From: Spirochaetota bacterium
GTDB lineage: Bacteria; Spirochaetota; UBA4802; UBA5368
Reading direction: 5' to 3'
Assembly: GCA_035477215.1 (NCBI GenBank)
Contig: DATIKU010000014.1
Coordinates: 124,001 to 188,000, forward strand
DNA: 64,000 nt
Below, in pieces: positions 55,042 to 62,217 of this stretch (positions are counted from its first letter, which is position 1; the number at the start of each line of letters is the position of its first letter). The translations under genes were made by a program, and so were the position numbers. The notes under the pieces were generated by a model, which made no database searches, was not told the DNA's origin, and saw only the letters and a list, made by a program, of their open reading frames with translations.

Positions 55042-56169
55042 GTGAAAGAGCAAAAACAGAGACTGGGCGCCCTGCGGGGGCTGTTCTTCGCGGGCCTTCT
55101 TTCCTCAATTCTTGTAATGCCGGGCGCCTGCGAGGCCAGGGAACAGAAAGACATGATCCTTGTCCTCGATACATCGATGAGCATGATCGGCAGCGGCGGC
55201 CGGAACATAATGGCGGGAGTGAAGGAAGGCCTGGACAAGTTCATCGATCAGCTCGAGGCGGGTGACAGCTTCACCTTCATCACCTTCGATACGGAAGTAA
55301 AGCTCTATCCGATTGTCTACATCCATGACAAAAACGACAAGGAAATCTTAAAGAAGTATGTCTCGGTGATTGAGGCGAAAGGGGCCTGGACCTACACGCA
55401 GGAGATGATTAGGAACGTATTCAAGACGGCTCAGAGCCTCGAAGAAAAGGAGAAGGGCAGACAGAGGGTTATCGTGGTCCTGACCGACGCGCTTGATGAT
55501 CCTCCTCCCGGGCGGCGTCACGAACGCTTCGATATCAAGAAAATTGCCAAGCAGTACAATAACAAGGACTGGTTTATTTTCCTCGTAAATCTCGGGGATA
55601 TCAAAACCGGCAGGATGATTGAAAAAGCCCAAAAGGACATAAAAGACAACATTTCACCGTACACCAGGGTCGTCGACGCGACCGATGCTCCGGGCAAGGT
55701 CATCGAGAAGCAGCTGATGCGGGATGTCCGCGACATGTCCGCCGAGCGGCGCGAGAATGAAAAGACCTTCCTCTCGAGTCCCTGGTTTCTCGGCGCCCTG
55801 GCGCTTCTGGTCGCGCTGGTTGTGCTGATTCTGGTGCGCCGTTACCTGGGGCTCCGGGTGAGCGGCGTGCTGGATTACTGGAACAACACCATCCTCGATC
55901 CGTATATCAACACGATCAATCTCTCGCGGCAGGAGGGCCGGAAAATAAGCATCGGCCGCGGAAGCGGCCTTACGGTAAACATCAGGGACATCGAGATTGC
56001 GGAGCCGTTCAGGGTCGTCGCGCGCCGCGACAAGGGCGTGATAAAATGTGCGCTCCAGTGGGGAAACAGTTATACCATAGAGTTCCAGAACGGGGTGCAG
56101 GGTGAATACCTGAAAGACGGGGACGTATTCAAGGTGGCGAACTATACGTTTAAGTACAGTATCGATTGA
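55042..56169 (+). CDS. VWA-domain membrane protein with FHA-like C-terminus
   Basis: A 375-residue protein. A signal peptide (about 1-32) and a von Willebrand A domain (about 35-230) with the metal-site motif DTSMS at 43-47 and VVLTDALDD further on. A membrane helix (about 253-275) follows, then a short beta-rich segment (about 305-375; KISIGRGSGLTVNIRDIEI and the DGDVFKVANYTFKY end) that resembles an FHA fold. That gives an extracytoplasmic VWA and a cytoplasmic FHA-like part. Starts GTG, with AAGGAG upstream. VWA and FHA modules often mediate protein contacts. Confidence 0.8.
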   Translation: MKEQKQRLGALRGLFFAGLLSSILVMPGACEAREQKDMILVLDTSMSMIGSGGRNIMAGVKEGLDKFIDQLEAGDSFTFITFDTEVKLYPIVYIHDKNDKEILKKYVSVIEAKGAWTYTQEMIRNVFKTAQSLEEKEKGRQRVIVVLTDALDDPPPGRRHERFDIKKIAKQYNNKDWFIFLVNLGDIKTGRMIEKAQKDIKDNISPYTRVVDATDAPGKVIEKQLMRDVRDMSAERRENEKTFLSSPWFLGALALLVALVVLILVRRYLGLRVSGVLDYWNNTILDPYINTINLSRQEGRKISIGRGSGLTVNIRDIEIAEPFRVVARRDKGVIKCALQWGNSYTIEFQNGVQGEYLKDGDVFKVANYTFKYSID

Positions 56170-56378: not shown

Positions 56379-58337
56379 ATGTCGATAACTCAATTACCCA
56401 AGAGCCCGAATAAATTTCATCCTACCGAGCCGAGCGCGGTCGGGTCGCGGAATTCGATCGCTCAGGAAGGGCGCGATAAGATCGCGGAATCGAAGCTTGT
56501 CATTGATGAAACATCGGACAAGGTATTAAATACCATCATGAACAAACTTCCCGAAGAGGTTCTCTCGAGGCTTGACGTGATGGGCGGGCTGAAAGAGAAA
56601 ATATACAACTACGTCAACCAGGCGTACGTCAACATGGCCAACCGCTACACGGTCACCATGGAAGACGAATTTTTAAAGAAGGTTCGCGACTTCGTCGACA
56701 AGGAAGAGGCCAAGGGACTGGCCCGTTATACTTCCCGCGAGATGATCGAGCTTCTCGACAAGATCGGGGGCGCCGACAAGTTCAACACCGGCGAAATCGA
56801 GAAGTCGATGGTCAATATGTACGGGCACCTTCAGGGCCATATCCAGCGCGGCATGAACGACCTCGAAAATGAGACCAACGCCATACTGAGACAGAAGACC
56901 GACGTCGGTGCCTTTGTCCGCGGTGAAAACGCCTATGCAATTATCAAGTGCATCTTCAAGGACAATCAGCTTCGGCCCAAGTTCGTTTACGACGTCAAAC
57001 TGTCGATCAACATCCTCGACAGCGAGCTGGTGAGCCCGATCTACCACTACCAGGTAACCGTCGAGTCTCTCCTTAAAGACGCCATCCAGAAGCACATCCA
57101 GGACCTCATCGACAAGCAGGTACAGCAGCTTACCGAGGAGCTGGTCGACCAGGGCAAGAGCGAACTGTCGGGCTCGGAGATAATGTTCGAAAAGATCAAG
57201 AGGATCGACAGCTATACCGACGACGACAAGGAAGACGAGAAGTCCCGCCGGTACACCATTCTCGCCAAAAGGTTCCTGGACAAGATCGAAGGCCTCCGCG
57301 CCGAGATCGACATCGAGGAGTACGATCCGCTGAACATCCGAGAGAACATCAAGCATATCATTGACTCCGAAAATATCCGTAACCGCGGCTACAACACCGC
57401 GATCAACGCACTTACCTCGATCCTCGACACCTCGAAGCTCGGCTATCAAGTGTGCGACAACATGAAGAACGCCCGCATATGCCAGATCAGGGAATACGAG
57501 GAGATGGACAGGACGATCCTTCCCGACGAGCGCTATGCCATCAGGCTGGCCTACTACGACCAGAACCAGTTGCGCGAAGAGAAGCGCGAGTTCGACCGCC
57601 AGATGGAAGGCTTCACGAAGGAGATTCTGCGCGCATGGGACGTTGTGCATGCCCATTATGAGTCCAAGAAGCGCTTCCGTTCGCTGAAGGATTTCGACGA
57701 TCTCTGCAGCCGCCTCATGAGCAAGGAGTGGAGACGCGGAAAGAAGGAAGAAGAGGCCGATCCCAACAGCGTTCTCTGGAACGAGCTCGGCGAGCTATAC
57801 AACGAAGGCAGCTTCGTCGAGAAGAACAACAGGACCTACGAGGACAGGATACTCAACCTCAAGGGCAAGTTGAAATACCTCAGAGAGATTTTACAGAACA
57901 TGCATGGCTACCAGAACCCGATCGAGCGCGTAATCCTCGACGAGCGCCTGAGCTTCCTTGACAGGAAATTCAATGAATTCACCTACAAGATCAACCCGCA
58001 CCACATTCAGCCGGGGCTCATCCTCGACGTCGACGTTACGACGATCAAGAGGAAGCAGTACATGCTCAAGGGTATGGCGAATGTTCTGAACGAGTTCCTG
58101 TACGGTATCTCGAAGGGATTCGCCGACGCGGCATTCGCCCAGTTCAAGAGAAGGAGGTCGACCGTTCGTTCGGACATCTCGCAGTCTTTCGGCGAAGAAG
58201 AGATCAAGGAAGATATTTTCGAGACCGCTTATAAAACGGCCGCCGACGCTGCTGAAGTCGCGGAAGTGAAGGGATCCATAAACCTTTCGCCCCGTCTAAA
58301 GCCGAAAGGCAAGGCTTCCGGTCTGAAAGAACTGTAA
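56379..58337 (+). CDS. cfpA: Cytoplasmic filament protein CfpA-type
   Basis: A 652-residue largely helical protein without signal peptide or membrane segment. Content and order (KIYNYVNQAYVNMANRYTVT, GGADKFNTGEIEKSMVNMYGHLQG, QKTDVGAFVRGENAYAIIKC and the later long coiled-coil helices) match my recollection of treponemal CfpA, the subunit of the ribbon-like filaments lying under the inner membrane in Treponema. Length is close to the roughly 680 residues there. It has its own promoter and terminator. An unknown gene and a PPDK-like gene follow on the same strand, as I recall in Treponema. The identification rests on memory of the family. Confidence 0.75.
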   Translation: MSITQLPKSPNKFHPTEPSAVGSRNSIAQEGRDKIAESKLVIDETSDKVLNTIMNKLPEEVLSRLDVMGGLKEKIYNYVNQAYVNMANRYTVTMEDEFLKKVRDFVDKEEAKGLARYTSREMIELLDKIGGADKFNTGEIEKSMVNMYGHLQGHIQRGMNDLENETNAILRQKTDVGAFVRGENAYAIIKCIFKDNQLRPKFVYDVKLSINILDSELVSPIYHYQVTVESLLKDAIQKHIQDLIDKQVQQLTEELVDQGKSELSGSEIMFEKIKRIDSYTDDDKEDEKSRRYTILAKRFLDKIEGLRAEIDIEEYDPLNIRENIKHIIDSENIRNRGYNTAINALTSILDTSKLGYQVCDNMKNARICQIREYEEMDRTILPDERYAIRLAYYDQNQLREEKREFDRQMEGFTKEILRAWDVVHAHYESKKRFRSLKDFDDLCSRLMSKEWRRGKKEEEADPNSVLWNELGELYNEGSFVEKNNRTYEDRILNLKGKLKYLREILQNMHGYQNPIERVILDERLSFLDRKFNEFTYKINPHHIQPGLILDVDVTTIKRKQYMLKGMANVLNEFLYGISKGFADAAFAQFKRRRSTVRSDISQSFGEEEIKEDIFETAYKTAADAAEVAEVKGSINLSPRLKPKGKASGLKEL

Positions 58338-58358
58338 AAATCGGTAACAGCGCAATTT

Positions 58359-58395
58359 AAAAAAGGGTGCCCGAAAGGGTGCCCTTTTTTTCTTT
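58359..58395 (+). terminator. Intrinsic terminator after cfpA
   Basis: AAAAAAGGG..CCC GAAA GGG..CCCTTTTTT forms a stem with a GAAA tetraloop and a central pair of G-U wobbles, then a T-rich tail. It starts 22 bases after the stop. Confidence 0.85.
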
Positions 58396-58445
58396 ATTTA
58401 AGGGGAAAAGTTGGGTTTAGGCGTGGGGATATTATTTGCTGACAG

Positions 58446-58474
58446 TTGACAAAATGCTTGCAATTATTTTAAAA
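58446..58474 (+). promoter_or_regulatory. Possible promoter of the unknown/PPDK-like operon
   Basis: TTGACA (58446-58451), 17 bases, TTAAAA (58469-58474). Weak -10 but placed between the cfpA terminator and the next gene. Confidence 0.4.
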
Positions 58475-58579
58475 CCGCGGACAATATACACTGCATGGTT
58501 CGGTGTGTCCGGATGATGCTGCGGCCCGGCATATAACGGTTTGCTGCGGGGAAAAAATTTGTCACAAGGAGTCTGACCC

Positions 58580-59491
58580 ATGGAAAGCGCTTTTTATTCG
58601 CTTGCGACCAAGAGCAATTTCAACAAGGCACTGAACCACTTCTTCAAGGTCAATGAGATCGTCGATTACCTCGATTCAAAAAGAAATCTCGCCGATGTCA
58701 TAAACGCCGATCTCGACCAGAACGAGATCATGATAGACCAGATTCTTCCGATCGTCGGGGCGGTGATCCGCGATAAGTACCGGTATTCATACGATTCATA
58801 CAATGTTCACGAAAAGGTAACCGACTTCGCGAAGCTGGCCGGGGAGACCGCCAAGTGGACGGCGCTGGACATACTGATCGTTTACTACACCCCGGCGGGG
58901 GAGATATCGCTTGTTAATCCCAAGAATATGGCCCACTGGGACAGGGTTCGCGAACTGGCAAAAGACCAGGCGATGGTCATATACGCGCGCCATCTGAAAG
59001 AGGAAAAAGACTCCAAGATCGAGCACGAGGCGATCGCGGCCATTGAGGAGATGATCGCCGGCAAGGACGTATTCATCAACAAGGACTTCATCGACCAGAC
59101 GGTCGCGCCCAAGGCGGCCCCGCCAAGGCCGGTGGTGCAGGCGGCAGCGGCGGCCGGACAGAGAAGGATGACTCCCAAGTATTCCGTCCAGGTGACCAAC
59201 GAGCTTTTCCATAATGGAAACGTGGAGGCCTGGAAACGAATCATCGAAAGCTATAAGGTCGCTCATCCGGACATCGAAGTAAGGATATTTTATGAGAACG
59301 AGCTTATCAATGATATCAATACCCTTTTTAAATGGGGCAAAGTGAAGACGGGCGGTTTGATTTTCTTCCAGGCTTCGGGCGAGAATATCCGTAACGTTTC
59401 CAAGCTGCAGAAGTACCTCTTCGAGGGTGCAAGCCCCCGTTTCGAACAGTTCCTCAAGCTTGGCGTCGGCAAAGTTCTCAAGCTTTTCTAA
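58580..59491 (+). CDS. Unknown protein paired with PPDK-like gene
   Basis: A 303-residue cytoplasmic protein. The N-terminal helical domain (about 1-155) and the C-terminal alpha/beta domain (about 195-303; SVQVTNELFHNGNVEAWKRIIE, EVRIFYENELINDINTLFKW) are joined by an Ala/Pro linker (about 170-195). No motif or family is recognised. AAGGAG precedes the ATG. It lies between cfpA and the PPDK-like gene; the next gene starts 56 bases on. The same three-gene order exists, as far as I recall, in Treponema pallidum (TP0746-TP0748). Confidence 0.7.
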   Translation: MESAFYSLATKSNFNKALNHFFKVNEIVDYLDSKRNLADVINADLDQNEIMIDQILPIVGAVIRDKYRYSYDSYNVHEKVTDFAKLAGETAKWTALDILIVYYTPAGEISLVNPKNMAHWDRVRELAKDQAMVIYARHLKEEKDSKIEHEAIAAIEEMIAGKDVFINKDFIDQTVAPKAAPPRPVVQAAAAAGQRRMTPKYSVQVTNELFHNGNVEAWKRIIESYKVAHPDIEVRIFYENELINDINTLFKWGKVKTGGLIFFQASGENIRNVSKLQKYLFEGASPRFEQFLKLGVGKVLKLF

Positions 59492-59546
59492 CGTAACGCA
59501 GACTGAAAAAAGAAACGGAAAAGCAATAAAAAGGGAGAATTGAACA

Positions 59547-62138
59547 ATGGAAAACATAGTTTATTTCAGCAAGGACCTCAAAGAGCTTGATGAGAAAGTT
59601 AAAAAAAGACTCGGTATTCGGGGACGGCGCGCGGTTGAGCTTGCGATGATGGGCCTCCCGATAGCTCCCGGCTTTATTATAGATTCGGAGCTTACAAGGA
59701 AGCTGCCACAGGTAAATTTGAAGGAGTTTTTAAAGACTCATATAGACCACCTCGAAAAAGAAACCAAAAAGGGATTCGGCGATGCGAAAAGGCCGCTCCT
59801 TCTCAAGGTGGTTTTAAGCTCGGATTTCAATGTGCCGTATTTCCCCTCGATACACAACATAGGGCTCAACGACAAGACGGTGACCGGCTTCGGACAGTTT
59901 ACCGGATTGGATTTCGCATACGGTGAATACAGGTTTTTACTGAGGAGCGTGGGGACAAAAATATACAGCCTGGAGGCCGCGGACTTCGACAAGATGGACG
60001 CGAAGGGCGCGAAGCAGAAGGCCGAAGACATAAAGAAGGCCGTGGATAATTTTAAGAAGTACCTTGGTGACAAATACAGCGAAGACGTGTACGACCAGCT
60101 CGGTCTTATACTGAAAGGGGCGGCTTCCAGGTATTGCGACTCCGAGATCGATGTGGACGATTCACTCTCCATCATGGTGCAGGCGATGGTCTACGGCAAC
60201 TTCGGCAACAATTCCTATTCGGGGAATTACTATACGAGGAATATCATTACGGGTGACCCGCTTATCCAGGGTAGCTTTCTCCAGAACGCCTTCGACATCG
60301 ACAAGAGCAAGTCGAAGGATATTGCAAAGATCGATAAAAAGTATTTCGACAAGTTCTCAGACATAGCCAAGAAAGTGGAGGAGAAGTTCAAGGAGATCCG
60401 GGAGATCAAGTTCACCATCGAGGAAGGCGATTTCTGGCTGGTTGAGCAAAGGGACGTTGACGAAAAATCGACCCAGGCGCACATCAAAACGCTGCTCGAT
60501 CTATGCAAGCGGAAAAGCGTGACCGAAGAATACGTGGTCGGCAATATCAAGCCGGCCCAGCTTAACGAGCTTCTGCACCCCGTTATCGATCCAAGGACGA
60601 TCGGCGGCGTCAAGACCATCAAGGGCGGGATTTCCGGATCGCCCGGGGCGGCGATCGGCCGGGTGTTCTTCTCGACGCCGAAGCTGCTTGAGGAATATAA
60701 AAAAGCGATCATGCACGGGGGCGACACCAACCTGATTCTGGTGATGCCCTCAAGTTACGCGGAGGATGTCAAGGCGATCGAGGTCGCGAAGGGCGTTATG
60801 ACCACGGAGGGCGGGTTCTCTTCACACGCCCCGGTGGTCGCTCGCAGTTTGGGAAAGGTCGCCATGGTTCAGCCGGACATGAGGATTCGCGGCACTACTT
60901 TCACACTGGCCGGCAAGACGGTAAAGGAAGGGGACTACGTTTCGATCAACGTTCCCTATTACGAACCGCCGACGATATATCTGGGGAAGGTCGGCCTCAT
61001 CGAACCGAACGTAAAGGAAAACGGGCTCATCGACTTTCTTAAAATCGTGGAAAAGTTTATTGATGATTTCGATGTTCGCGCCAACGCCGATCAGGGGCGC
61101 GACGCCAAGCTCGCCCGCGAGTTCAACGCCGTTGGTATCGGCCTGTGCAGGACCGAGCACATGTTCTTTAACGAGAAGCGCATCATGAGGTTCCGGGAGA
61201 TGATCCTCGCCGAGTCCGAGGATGAGCGCAGGAAAACCCTGGATGCGTTGAAGCCCATGCAGCGCTCGGACTTCTACGACCTCTTCAAGACGATGGTCGG
61301 GTTCCCGGTAACCATTCGCCTGCTCGACGCGCCTTTACATGAATTCCTGCCGCGTACGGACGCGAGTATGAAGGAGTTTATACGGCACATGCAGGGCCGG
61401 GGAAAGGCCCCCAAGCCCGCCGAAATAATGGCGCGCTGCGAGGAGCTCTCGGAGATGAACCCGATGCTCGGGCATCGCGGGTGCCGGGTCGCGATCACTT
61501 ATCCGGAAATCTACGAAATGCAGTGCCGCGCGATCTTCGAGGCGGCCTGCATGCTGAGAAAAGAGGGCATAAAAATCAAACCCGAAATCATGATTCCGAT
61601 TGTCATGACCGAGCACGAGCTGAAGTTCATCAAAAACGGCAAGAAAATCGAAGGAAAGGTCGTCAAGGGTATACGGGACATAAAGGACGAAGTGGTCATG
61701 GAGTATGGCGTCGAGGACCTCGACTACAGCGTTGGGACCATGATAGAGCTTCCCGCGGCGGCCCTCGGCGCGGGCGCTATCGCGCAGCATGCGGAGTTCT
61801 TCAGCTTCGGCACGAACGACCTTACCCAGACAACGTACGGACTCTCTCGCGACGACATCAACTCGTTCTTCCCGAGCTACTCGCTCTACGACCTCATCCG
61901 CAACAATCCTTTCCAGGTGCTGGGCGAGCAGGTAAAGGAGCTCATCGAAGTCGCCGCGCTCCGCGGGCGGCTCACCCGCCCGGACATCAAGATGGGACTG
62001 TGCGGCGAGCACGGAGCGGACCCGGAGAATATCGAGTTCTGCATCAATGTGGGACTGAACTACGTTTCGTGTAATCCGTATTCAATCCCGCTCGCAAAGC
62101 TCGCGGTTGCACAGTACAACCTGCGGGAAGAAGAATAG
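59547..62138 (+). CDS. Pyruvate phosphate dikinase homologue with degenerate ATP-grasp
   Basis: An 863-residue protein of PPDK length. The swivelling phosphohistidine domain (about 370-480) has His427 in EGGFSSHAPVVAR; the PEP/pyruvate barrel (about 505-863) is fully recognisable (GLCRTEHMFF, RLLDAPLHEF, GHRGCR, FGTNDLTQTTYG, GLCGEHGAD, NYVSCNPYSIP). The N-terminal ATP-grasp is divergent: the GGKGA loop reads GIRGR, the VRSGA segment is KVVLSS with Val89 where the nucleotide-binding Arg sits, and the MPGMMDT loop is lost. VQAMVYGNFG and FWLVEQRD remain. ATP binding is thus doubtful. It is paired with the preceding 303-residue gene. Confidence 0.85.
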   Translation: MENIVYFSKDLKELDEKVKKRLGIRGRRAVELAMMGLPIAPGFIIDSELTRKLPQVNLKEFLKTHIDHLEKETKKGFGDAKRPLLLKVVLSSDFNVPYFPSIHNIGLNDKTVTGFGQFTGLDFAYGEYRFLLRSVGTKIYSLEAADFDKMDAKGAKQKAEDIKKAVDNFKKYLGDKYSEDVYDQLGLILKGAASRYCDSEIDVDDSLSIMVQAMVYGNFGNNSYSGNYYTRNIITGDPLIQGSFLQNAFDIDKSKSKDIAKIDKKYFDKFSDIAKKVEEKFKEIREIKFTIEEGDFWLVEQRDVDEKSTQAHIKTLLDLCKRKSVTEEYVVGNIKPAQLNELLHPVIDPRTIGGVKTIKGGISGSPGAAIGRVFFSTPKLLEEYKKAIMHGGDTNLILVMPSSYAEDVKAIEVAKGVMTTEGGFSSHAPVVARSLGKVAMVQPDMRIRGTTFTLAGKTVKEGDYVSINVPYYEPPTIYLGKVGLIEPNVKENGLIDFLKIVEKFIDDFDVRANADQGRDAKLAREFNAVGIGLCRTEHMFFNEKRIMRFREMILAESEDERRKTLDALKPMQRSDFYDLFKTMVGFPVTIRLLDAPLHEFLPRTDASMKEFIRHMQGRGKAPKPAEIMARCEELSEMNPMLGHRGCRVAITYPEIYEMQCRAIFEAACMLRKEGIKIKPEIMIPIVMTEHELKFIKNGKKIEGKVVKGIRDIKDEVVMEYGVEDLDYSVGTMIELPAAALGAGAIAQHAEFFSFGTNDLTQTTYGLSRDDINSFFPSYSLYDLIRNNPFQVLGEQVKELIEVAALRGRLTRPDIKMGLCGEHGADPENIEFCINVGLNYVSCNPYSIPLAKLAVAQYNLREEE

Positions 62139-62217
62139 CCAAAACGGCGAAGTTTCGGTGAAACCGAGGAGAGGGACGGGAGTCTCTCTCCTTTTTTCTT
62201 GTCGAGTTACGCATCGG

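Follow-up and report, generated by a model that had tools for sequence, protein, structure and literature searches.

It has been known for decades that treponemes contain cytoplasmic filaments, and the assembly of cytoplasmic filament protein A (CfpA) into cytoplasmic ribbon filaments has been shown for treponemes only. In Treponema denticola, a cfpA mutant exhibits chromosome condensation and filamentation and has lost infectivity (PMC3398590, in excerpt). The excerpt treats the filament as a ribbon made of a single protein, whereas two conserved partners are proposed here; a title cited in it refers to components that bridge and anchor the filaments. In the literature searched, part of which was available as excerpts, no partner genes of the treponemal filament were found, nor any proposal linking a dikinase with CfpA, an HPr-like protein, or the spirochaete cytoskeleton.

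Published data from T. denticola nevertheless place the products of three neighbouring genes together. Among the 16 major proteins of the envelope fraction, TDE0844, annotated as pyruvate phosphate dikinase (PPDK), is band 1 and TDE0842 (CfpA) is band 3 (PMC3931704, in excerpt); this is not a fraction in which one would look for a soluble glycolytic enzyme. Moreover, TDE0842-TDE0844 are jointly repressed with P. gingivalis (-1.94, -1.50, and -2.30, respectively) and with T. forsythia (-3.12, -1.50, and -2.21) (PMC3914990, in excerpt).

The genes described here lie in a 64,000-nucleotide stretch of DNA from a Spirochaetota bacterium (hereafter, the window). The initial annotation had proposed that a filament protein, an unknown protein, and a PPDK homologue are encoded side by side, and the three open reading frames were found where it had placed them, on the plus strand and with the same lengths of 652, 303, and 863 amino acids (Table 1). 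It had also named results that would undo it, among them failure of a profile search to recognise the 652-residue protein as CfpA; this protein in fact scores above the NF040882 cut-off and belongs to the same family as the CfpA of the Treponema filament. The 303-residue protein (u303) is indeed without a match in Pfam, in NCBIfam, or, by sequence, in the PDB. As regards the third protein, the proposed homology to PPDK holds from end to end (residues 9-858 of the protein align with TIGR01828), but the score falls below the family cut-off and the ATP-site residues have been lost. Judging from the strong terminator-like hairpin that separates the first two genes, cfpA may have a transcript separate from that of u303 in the window organism.

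Table 1. Features of the cfpA locus, with positions counted from the first nucleotide of the window
Feature	Position	Strand	Evidence or occurrence
279-aa neighbour; family has a DUF6602 match (PF20247) in locus L103	53985..54824	+	family in 49/137 cfpA loci
VWA-domain protein	55042..56169	+	PF00092, 8.4e-12; family in 91/137 cfpA loci
cfpA, cytoplasmic filament protein A, 652 aa	56379..58337	+	NF040882 profile, 910.7 bits (cut-off 500)
Candidate terminator-like hairpin (14 pairs) and T-run between cfpA and u303	58359..58390	+	consensus scan, sequence inspection
Weak promoter-like site before u303, 9/12	58439..58467	+	consensus scan only
u303 (TP0747/TDE0843 counterpart), 303 aa: N-terminal helical part, HPr-like D1, linker, HPr-like D2	58580..59491	+	orthologues in 134/392 genomes
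D1, residues 69-162, predicted HPr fold, no conserved histidine	58784..59065	+	VIA Z 9.2
D2, residues 195-303, predicted HPr-like fold	59162..59488	+	VIA Z 7.6
Motif NELFHNGNVEAWK (207-219), H211 just before helix A	59198..59236	+	H211 in 113/113
Motif LFKWGKVK (249-256), at the place of the HPr 46-50 region	59324..59347	+	column counts
PPDK-like protein (TP0746/TDE0844 counterpart), 863 aa	59547..62138	+	TIGR01828, 716.1 bits (cut-off 843.45)
Eroded nucleotide-binding domain, R25 (K22 of 1dik) to K288 (E323); V89 for R92	59619..60410	+	
Catalytic histidine H427 (His455 of 1dik)	60825..60827	+	kept in 107/107 rows
PEP/pyruvate domain, residues 506-858: R535, E537, R591, E734, N757, C819	61062..62120	+	PF02896, 5e-69
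Terminator-like hairpin 3' of the PPDK-like gene	62166..62193	+	consensus scan

On the other side of cfpA, genes of the VWA family are frequent companions. A VWA gene also stands upstream of cfpA in locus L131, and in Treponema pallidum the member of the VWA family adjoins cfpA but is encoded on the opposite strand, with a further gene (family 5, found in 41 loci) beside it; these two neighbours presumably correspond to the positions of TP0750 and TP0751, respectively.

CfpA was found in 136 of the 392 Spirochaetota genomes searched, whereas 14 control genomes gave no match; this yielded 137 cfpA loci, the window included (one locus, from genome G028, is one of two fragments). In 96 of the 137 loci, cfpA, u303, and the PPDK-like gene are adjacent and in this order; T. 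pallidum is among them, and the frames of its cfpA and of proteins of 344 and 901 amino acids follow one another just as the initial annotation had stated for TP0748, TP0747, and TP0746. In 15 further loci the PPDK-like gene lies 5-7 kb further on; the insert before it in L103 consists of VWA, DUF6602, and GGDEF genes and one gene without a Pfam match. Among the remaining loci, four contigs end inside u303 and six end less than 1 kb from cfpA; in three others u303 is present but no PPDK is seen, and in 13 u303 is absent from at least the first 1 kb downstream of cfpA. The order, whose absence from other spirochaetes would have told against the annotation, is present across the phylum and conserved far beyond chance, and a fortuitous neighbourhood of three genes was rejected on this ground. 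Two loci are unusual in their cfpA genes: genome G309 (L147, L148) has two full copies, only one of which stands beside u303 and the PPDK-like gene, and in G212 (L069) the cfpA match lies within a read-through frame with one stop.

The three genes also occur jointly. Among the 392 genomes, searches with family alignments gave 134 with u303 and 133 with the PPDK-like protein; all three genes are present in 128 genomes, none in 252, and a subset in 12, which are mostly incomplete assemblies or cut at contig ends. These subsets comprise CfpA and u303 (G044, G109, G214), u303 and the PPDK-like protein (G183, G204, G307), CfpA and the PPDK-like protein (G202), CfpA alone (G114, G117, G207, G219), and the PPDK-like protein alone (G210); in G044, fragments of the PPDK-like gene lie at a contig end, and in G307, u303 is 311 bases from one. 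Joint retention does not depend on linkage, as the three genes lie on separate contigs in G052, G059, and G084, and u303 and the PPDK-like gene form an adjacent pair unlinked to cfpA in G007, G032, G050, G131, G087, G342, and G212. Since this pair usually remains adjacent where cfpA is unlinked, it is the tighter unit; the median gap in the 96 loci is 19 bp between u303 and the PPDK-like gene versus 94 bp between cfpA and u303.

It could be argued that gene order persists through descent and that the three genes have no functional link, a view to which a separate cfpA transcript in the window, as the terminator-like hairpin may indicate, would lend itself. This view is largely refuted, and very improbable indeed, in light of joint presence and absence over 392 genomes, unlinked cases included, of co-fractionation and co-regulation in T. 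denticola (PMC3931704, PMC3914990, both in excerpt), and of a divergent copy of the gene set in SAR324-type genomes (see below). The functional link that the initial annotation had suggested between the filament and the two other proteins is supported by the gene order and by the same joint occurrence and T. denticola data, and it is highly probable that the three genes constitute one functional module.

The PPDK-like protein is, with a similarly high degree of confidence, not a normal PPDK. It shares with PPDK (TIGR01828; 1dik) full three-domain homology, the phospho-histidine, and the PEP/pyruvate residues, but differs in its replaced ATP-site residues, a score below the cut-off, a separate branch in the tree, and linkage to cfpA and u303. 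In particular, residues K22, R92, D321, and E323, which we take to be those that bind ATP in C. symbiosum PPDK (1dik, whose numbering is used in what follows), read R, V, E, and K in the window protein, whereas none of the four is replaced in any of the 24 canonical spirochaete PPDKs used as a control (one of them a fragment). In the alignment of linked-type proteins (107 rows, in which at least three genomes occur twice, L304, L306, and L307 repeating L048, L050, and L131; from the first alignment, 12 of 113 PPDK matches, shorter than 780 amino acids, had been dropped), R22, V or I at position 92, and S94 occur in all 107 rows and R or K at position 323 in 105. The opposite holds for the catalytic histidine and the PEP site: H455, R561, E563, R617, E745, and N768 are found in 107 of 107 rows and C831 in 106. 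A loss of Q335 was counted at first and then dropped; this position reads E in one alignment and Q in another, and it is not claimed because the combined alignment with canonical PPDKs shifts the column.

Over whole domains, too, the loss is limited to one half. In the nucleotide domain, 113 columns are fixed in canonical PPDKs, of which 16 are retained by the linked family; the corresponding figures are 19 of 51 for the swivelling domain and 89 of 125 for the PEP domain. The linked family is monophyletic and forms a branch of its own (107 rows, support 0.949); its profile scores full-length PPDK-like proteins at 1077 bits or more and three fragments at 807-944 bits, compared with 770 bits for the best canonical PPDK. 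Every linked protein tested falls below the TIGR01828 cut-off, the T. pallidum protein scoring 609 bits, and the protein does not qualify as PTS Enzyme I either (TIGR01417, 112.6 bits versus a cut-off of 341.7). The nucleotide domain contains, moreover, six columns fixed to another residue (R22, K90, V92, S94, F119, and R320) and eight newly fixed ones, which suggests that it is under selection and not merely decaying. This could mean that the domain now serves a different acceptor or donor (another nucleotide, PPi, or a small metabolite), that a different phosphorylated product is made, and that u303 is a regulator. Rifampin phosphotransferase is a PPDK relative with another acceptor, which counts for such a re-tooling. 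A further relative of this kind is VadK (Rv1127c), a mycobacterial histidine kinase derived from PPDK, whose conversion to protein phosphotransfer parallels what is proposed here; in VadK the ATP half survives and the PEP domain is missing, whereas in the PPDK-like protein it is the PEP half that survives and the ATP site that is lost (PMC13400623, in excerpt). The re-tooling hypothesis is, however, improbable, as the module has no linked gene for a partner enzyme or a substrate and the HPr-like protein described below is left unexplained.

A role for the PPDK-like protein as the glycolytic enzyme of the window organism was rejected because the genome also encodes a canonical PPDK (G000:C31, 1265 bits) and a pyruvate kinase; most module-bearing genomes likewise hold a separate canonical PPDK and, where tested, a pyruvate kinase. 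Frames of approximately 1470-1510 amino acids with a partial match to the PPDK N-terminus occur in the window genome (G000:C36:50397-51386) and in G007, G032, G050, G131, G183, and G117, in addition to the canonical and linked copies.

In T. pallidum, TP0746 and TP0748 are reported to comprise 901 and 678 amino acids, respectively (PMC3373638, in excerpt), and the published variant positions of TP0746, nt 810772 and 811414 (PMC10013896, in excerpt), fall inside the 901-aa frame of genome G056, which, from its frame lengths and these variant positions, is taken as T. pallidum of the Nichols type. This genome is the only one of 13 searched in which no match to pyruvate kinase was obtained; a canonical PPDK was not found in it either, and its sole other PEP-utilising protein is probably PtsI. 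A PEP-consuming step that yields ATP would therefore otherwise be missing, and TP0746 has been termed a glycolytic PPDK (PMC10013896 and PMC8525777, in excerpt). According to this annotation, the protein would convert PEP, AMP, and PPi into pyruvate and ATP by means of an unusual nucleotide site, which is compatible with its full-length homology to PPDK. However, the T. pallidum protein has R28, V92, E301, and R303 at the ATP site, with all PEP-site residues kept, and at the level of sequence this speaks against TP0746 as a glycolytic PPDK. Considering also that the ATP-site residues are replaced in all rows, with a positive charge for E323 in 105 of 107, that no linked protein tested reaches the PPDK cut-off, and that most hosts possess the separate enzymes mentioned above, a working PPDK appears quite unlikely.

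The second partner, u303, has no recognisable sequence family: no Pfam match was obtained at E 0.1, nor for its T. pallidum counterpart at E 0.05, the HPr family PF00381 included, and no mention of TP0747 was found in the literature searched. Its C-terminal part looked HPr-like by eye, while the first structural comparison, made with an AlphaFold2 model built from 52 orthologues (pLDDT 90.5), placed HPr on the middle domain (D1); the C-terminal part (D2) was therefore predicted alone (residues 191-303, pLDDT 91.3, pTM 0.86) and also matched HPr. Two HPr-like folds are thus predicted for u303. The modelled D1 superimposes on HPr 9s8k_G with a VIA Z of 9.2 and an rmsd of 1.7 over 79 of 83 residues; for D2, the Z is 7.6 and the rmsd 2.2 over 79 aligned residues, the first 26 matches listed all being HPr, although a Z below 8 possibly reflects a common arrangement. 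The Foldseek E-values for the likeness are weak (0.045 and 0.012), HPr being the top match of D2 (E 0.012, probability 0.99). Homology between u303 and HPr at the sequence level was tried by profile alignment and was not established: the comparison with 25 spirochaete HPr sequences was not significant (probability 5.6, score 22.4; 24 control families reach 24.0), nor was the profile similarity of D1 to D2.

Conservation is concentrated in D2 (mean 0.73 versus 0.47 in D1). Among the 113 u303 sequences (6 of 119 matches, shorter than 290 amino acids, were dropped), residues 207-216, 218, and 219 are invariant, as are L249, F250, W252, G253, K254, V255, and K256, and K251 occurs in 111. In HPr, His15 stands just before helix A, and Arg17 follows two residues later. 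A helix starts right after H211 of u303, and by secondary-structure correspondence H211 is predicted to occupy the place of His15; Arg17 has no counterpart near H211, where G213 is found in 113 of 113 sequences.

Together, the two proteins recall the PTS. The PEP domain and the swivelling phospho-histidine of the PPDK-like protein are homologous to those of Enzyme I, and the u303 domains share with HPr the predicted fold (b-a-b-b-a-b-a), with a histidine before helix A in D2. The module differs from the PTS, however, in being based on PPDK instead of Enzyme I, in its tandem HPr-like folds without a Pfam HPr signal, and in having no EII; ordinary HPr and EI-type genes are additionally present in most genomes searched.

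The best reading of these data, to which we assign a probability of roughly 0.4, is a PEP-driven, PTS-like relay, or a PEP sensor, tied to the cytoplasmic filament. CfpA would form the cytoplasmic ribbon of a cytoskeletal module made up of the three genes. The PPDK-like protein would be a former PPDK without the ATP half-reaction, in which PEP still phosphorylates the swivelling histidine; the phosphoryl group might then move from this histidine to H211 in D2 of u303, and the pair would resemble Enzyme I and HPr of the PTS, built from PPDK. Alternatively, the PPDK-like protein might signal PEP/pyruvate status to u303 via the same histidine. In either case u303 would act on the filament or on its bridges or anchors. 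In its most specific form, which is proposed only tentatively, a PEP-driven phosphorelay descended from PPDK and a tandem HPr-like protein would control or anchor the filament throughout Spirochaetota and in some SAR324-type bacteria, and would tie chromosome segregation and division to glycolytic PEP.

The copies outside Spirochaetota bear directly on this proposal. Two MAG loci, L248 (labelled SAR324) and L246 (labelled Deltaproteobacteria), carry cfpA, u303, and the PPDK-like gene, with CfpA over the cut-off in both; in L248 (1178-9310), two cfpA genes flank u303 and the PPDK-like gene. Misbinned contigs were suspected and this explanation was set aside: both loci are probably real because PPDK-like matches occur in 12 of 52 genomes of the G392 phylum at scores (849 bits and above) that lie between those of the spirochaete linked-type and canonical proteins. 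In the two SAR324-type copies whose PEP domain could be read, the PEP site has decayed (R561 to K or S, E563 to D, R617 to Q or C, and D769 to M), with H455 kept and with the H211 motif retained in the u303 of these genomes. A PEP relay is therefore unlikely at least there, and H211 and H455 may have another role. Nothing else in the data weighs as heavily as this decay against a PEP relay as the function shared by all copies of the module.

The decay also favours a different view, in which the PPDK-like protein serves the filament as a structural or ligand-sensing pseudo-enzyme, e.g., a bridge or an anchor; it might bind PEP or pyruvate but would pass no phosphate to u303, itself a scaffold. 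In the SAR324-type genomes both active sites are eroded and the gene set is kept; with CfpA, the PPDK-like protein is one of the most abundant proteins of the envelope fraction in T. denticola (PMC3931704, in excerpt), which is more structural than relay-like; and HPr folds without a catalytic histidine exist, as in D1. On the other hand, if there were no turnover at that site, it would be difficult to account for an invariant PEP site and His455 in Spirochaetota next to a nucleotide domain that has drifted. A filament component that is non-catalytic or senses PEP is a possible, if somewhat doubtful, alternative that comes close behind the PEP-driven relay.

These findings put in question the annotation of TP0746 as the ATP-making glycolytic PPDK of the syphilis spirochaete; if the relay reading is true, T. 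pallidum would be without a known ATP-yielding step from PEP to pyruvate. The PPDK-like protein would be the mirror image of VadK, itself a 'PPDK' that proved to be something else (PMC13400623, in excerpt). For the filament itself, the analysis provides two specific candidate partners across the whole phylum, together with a testable mechanism.
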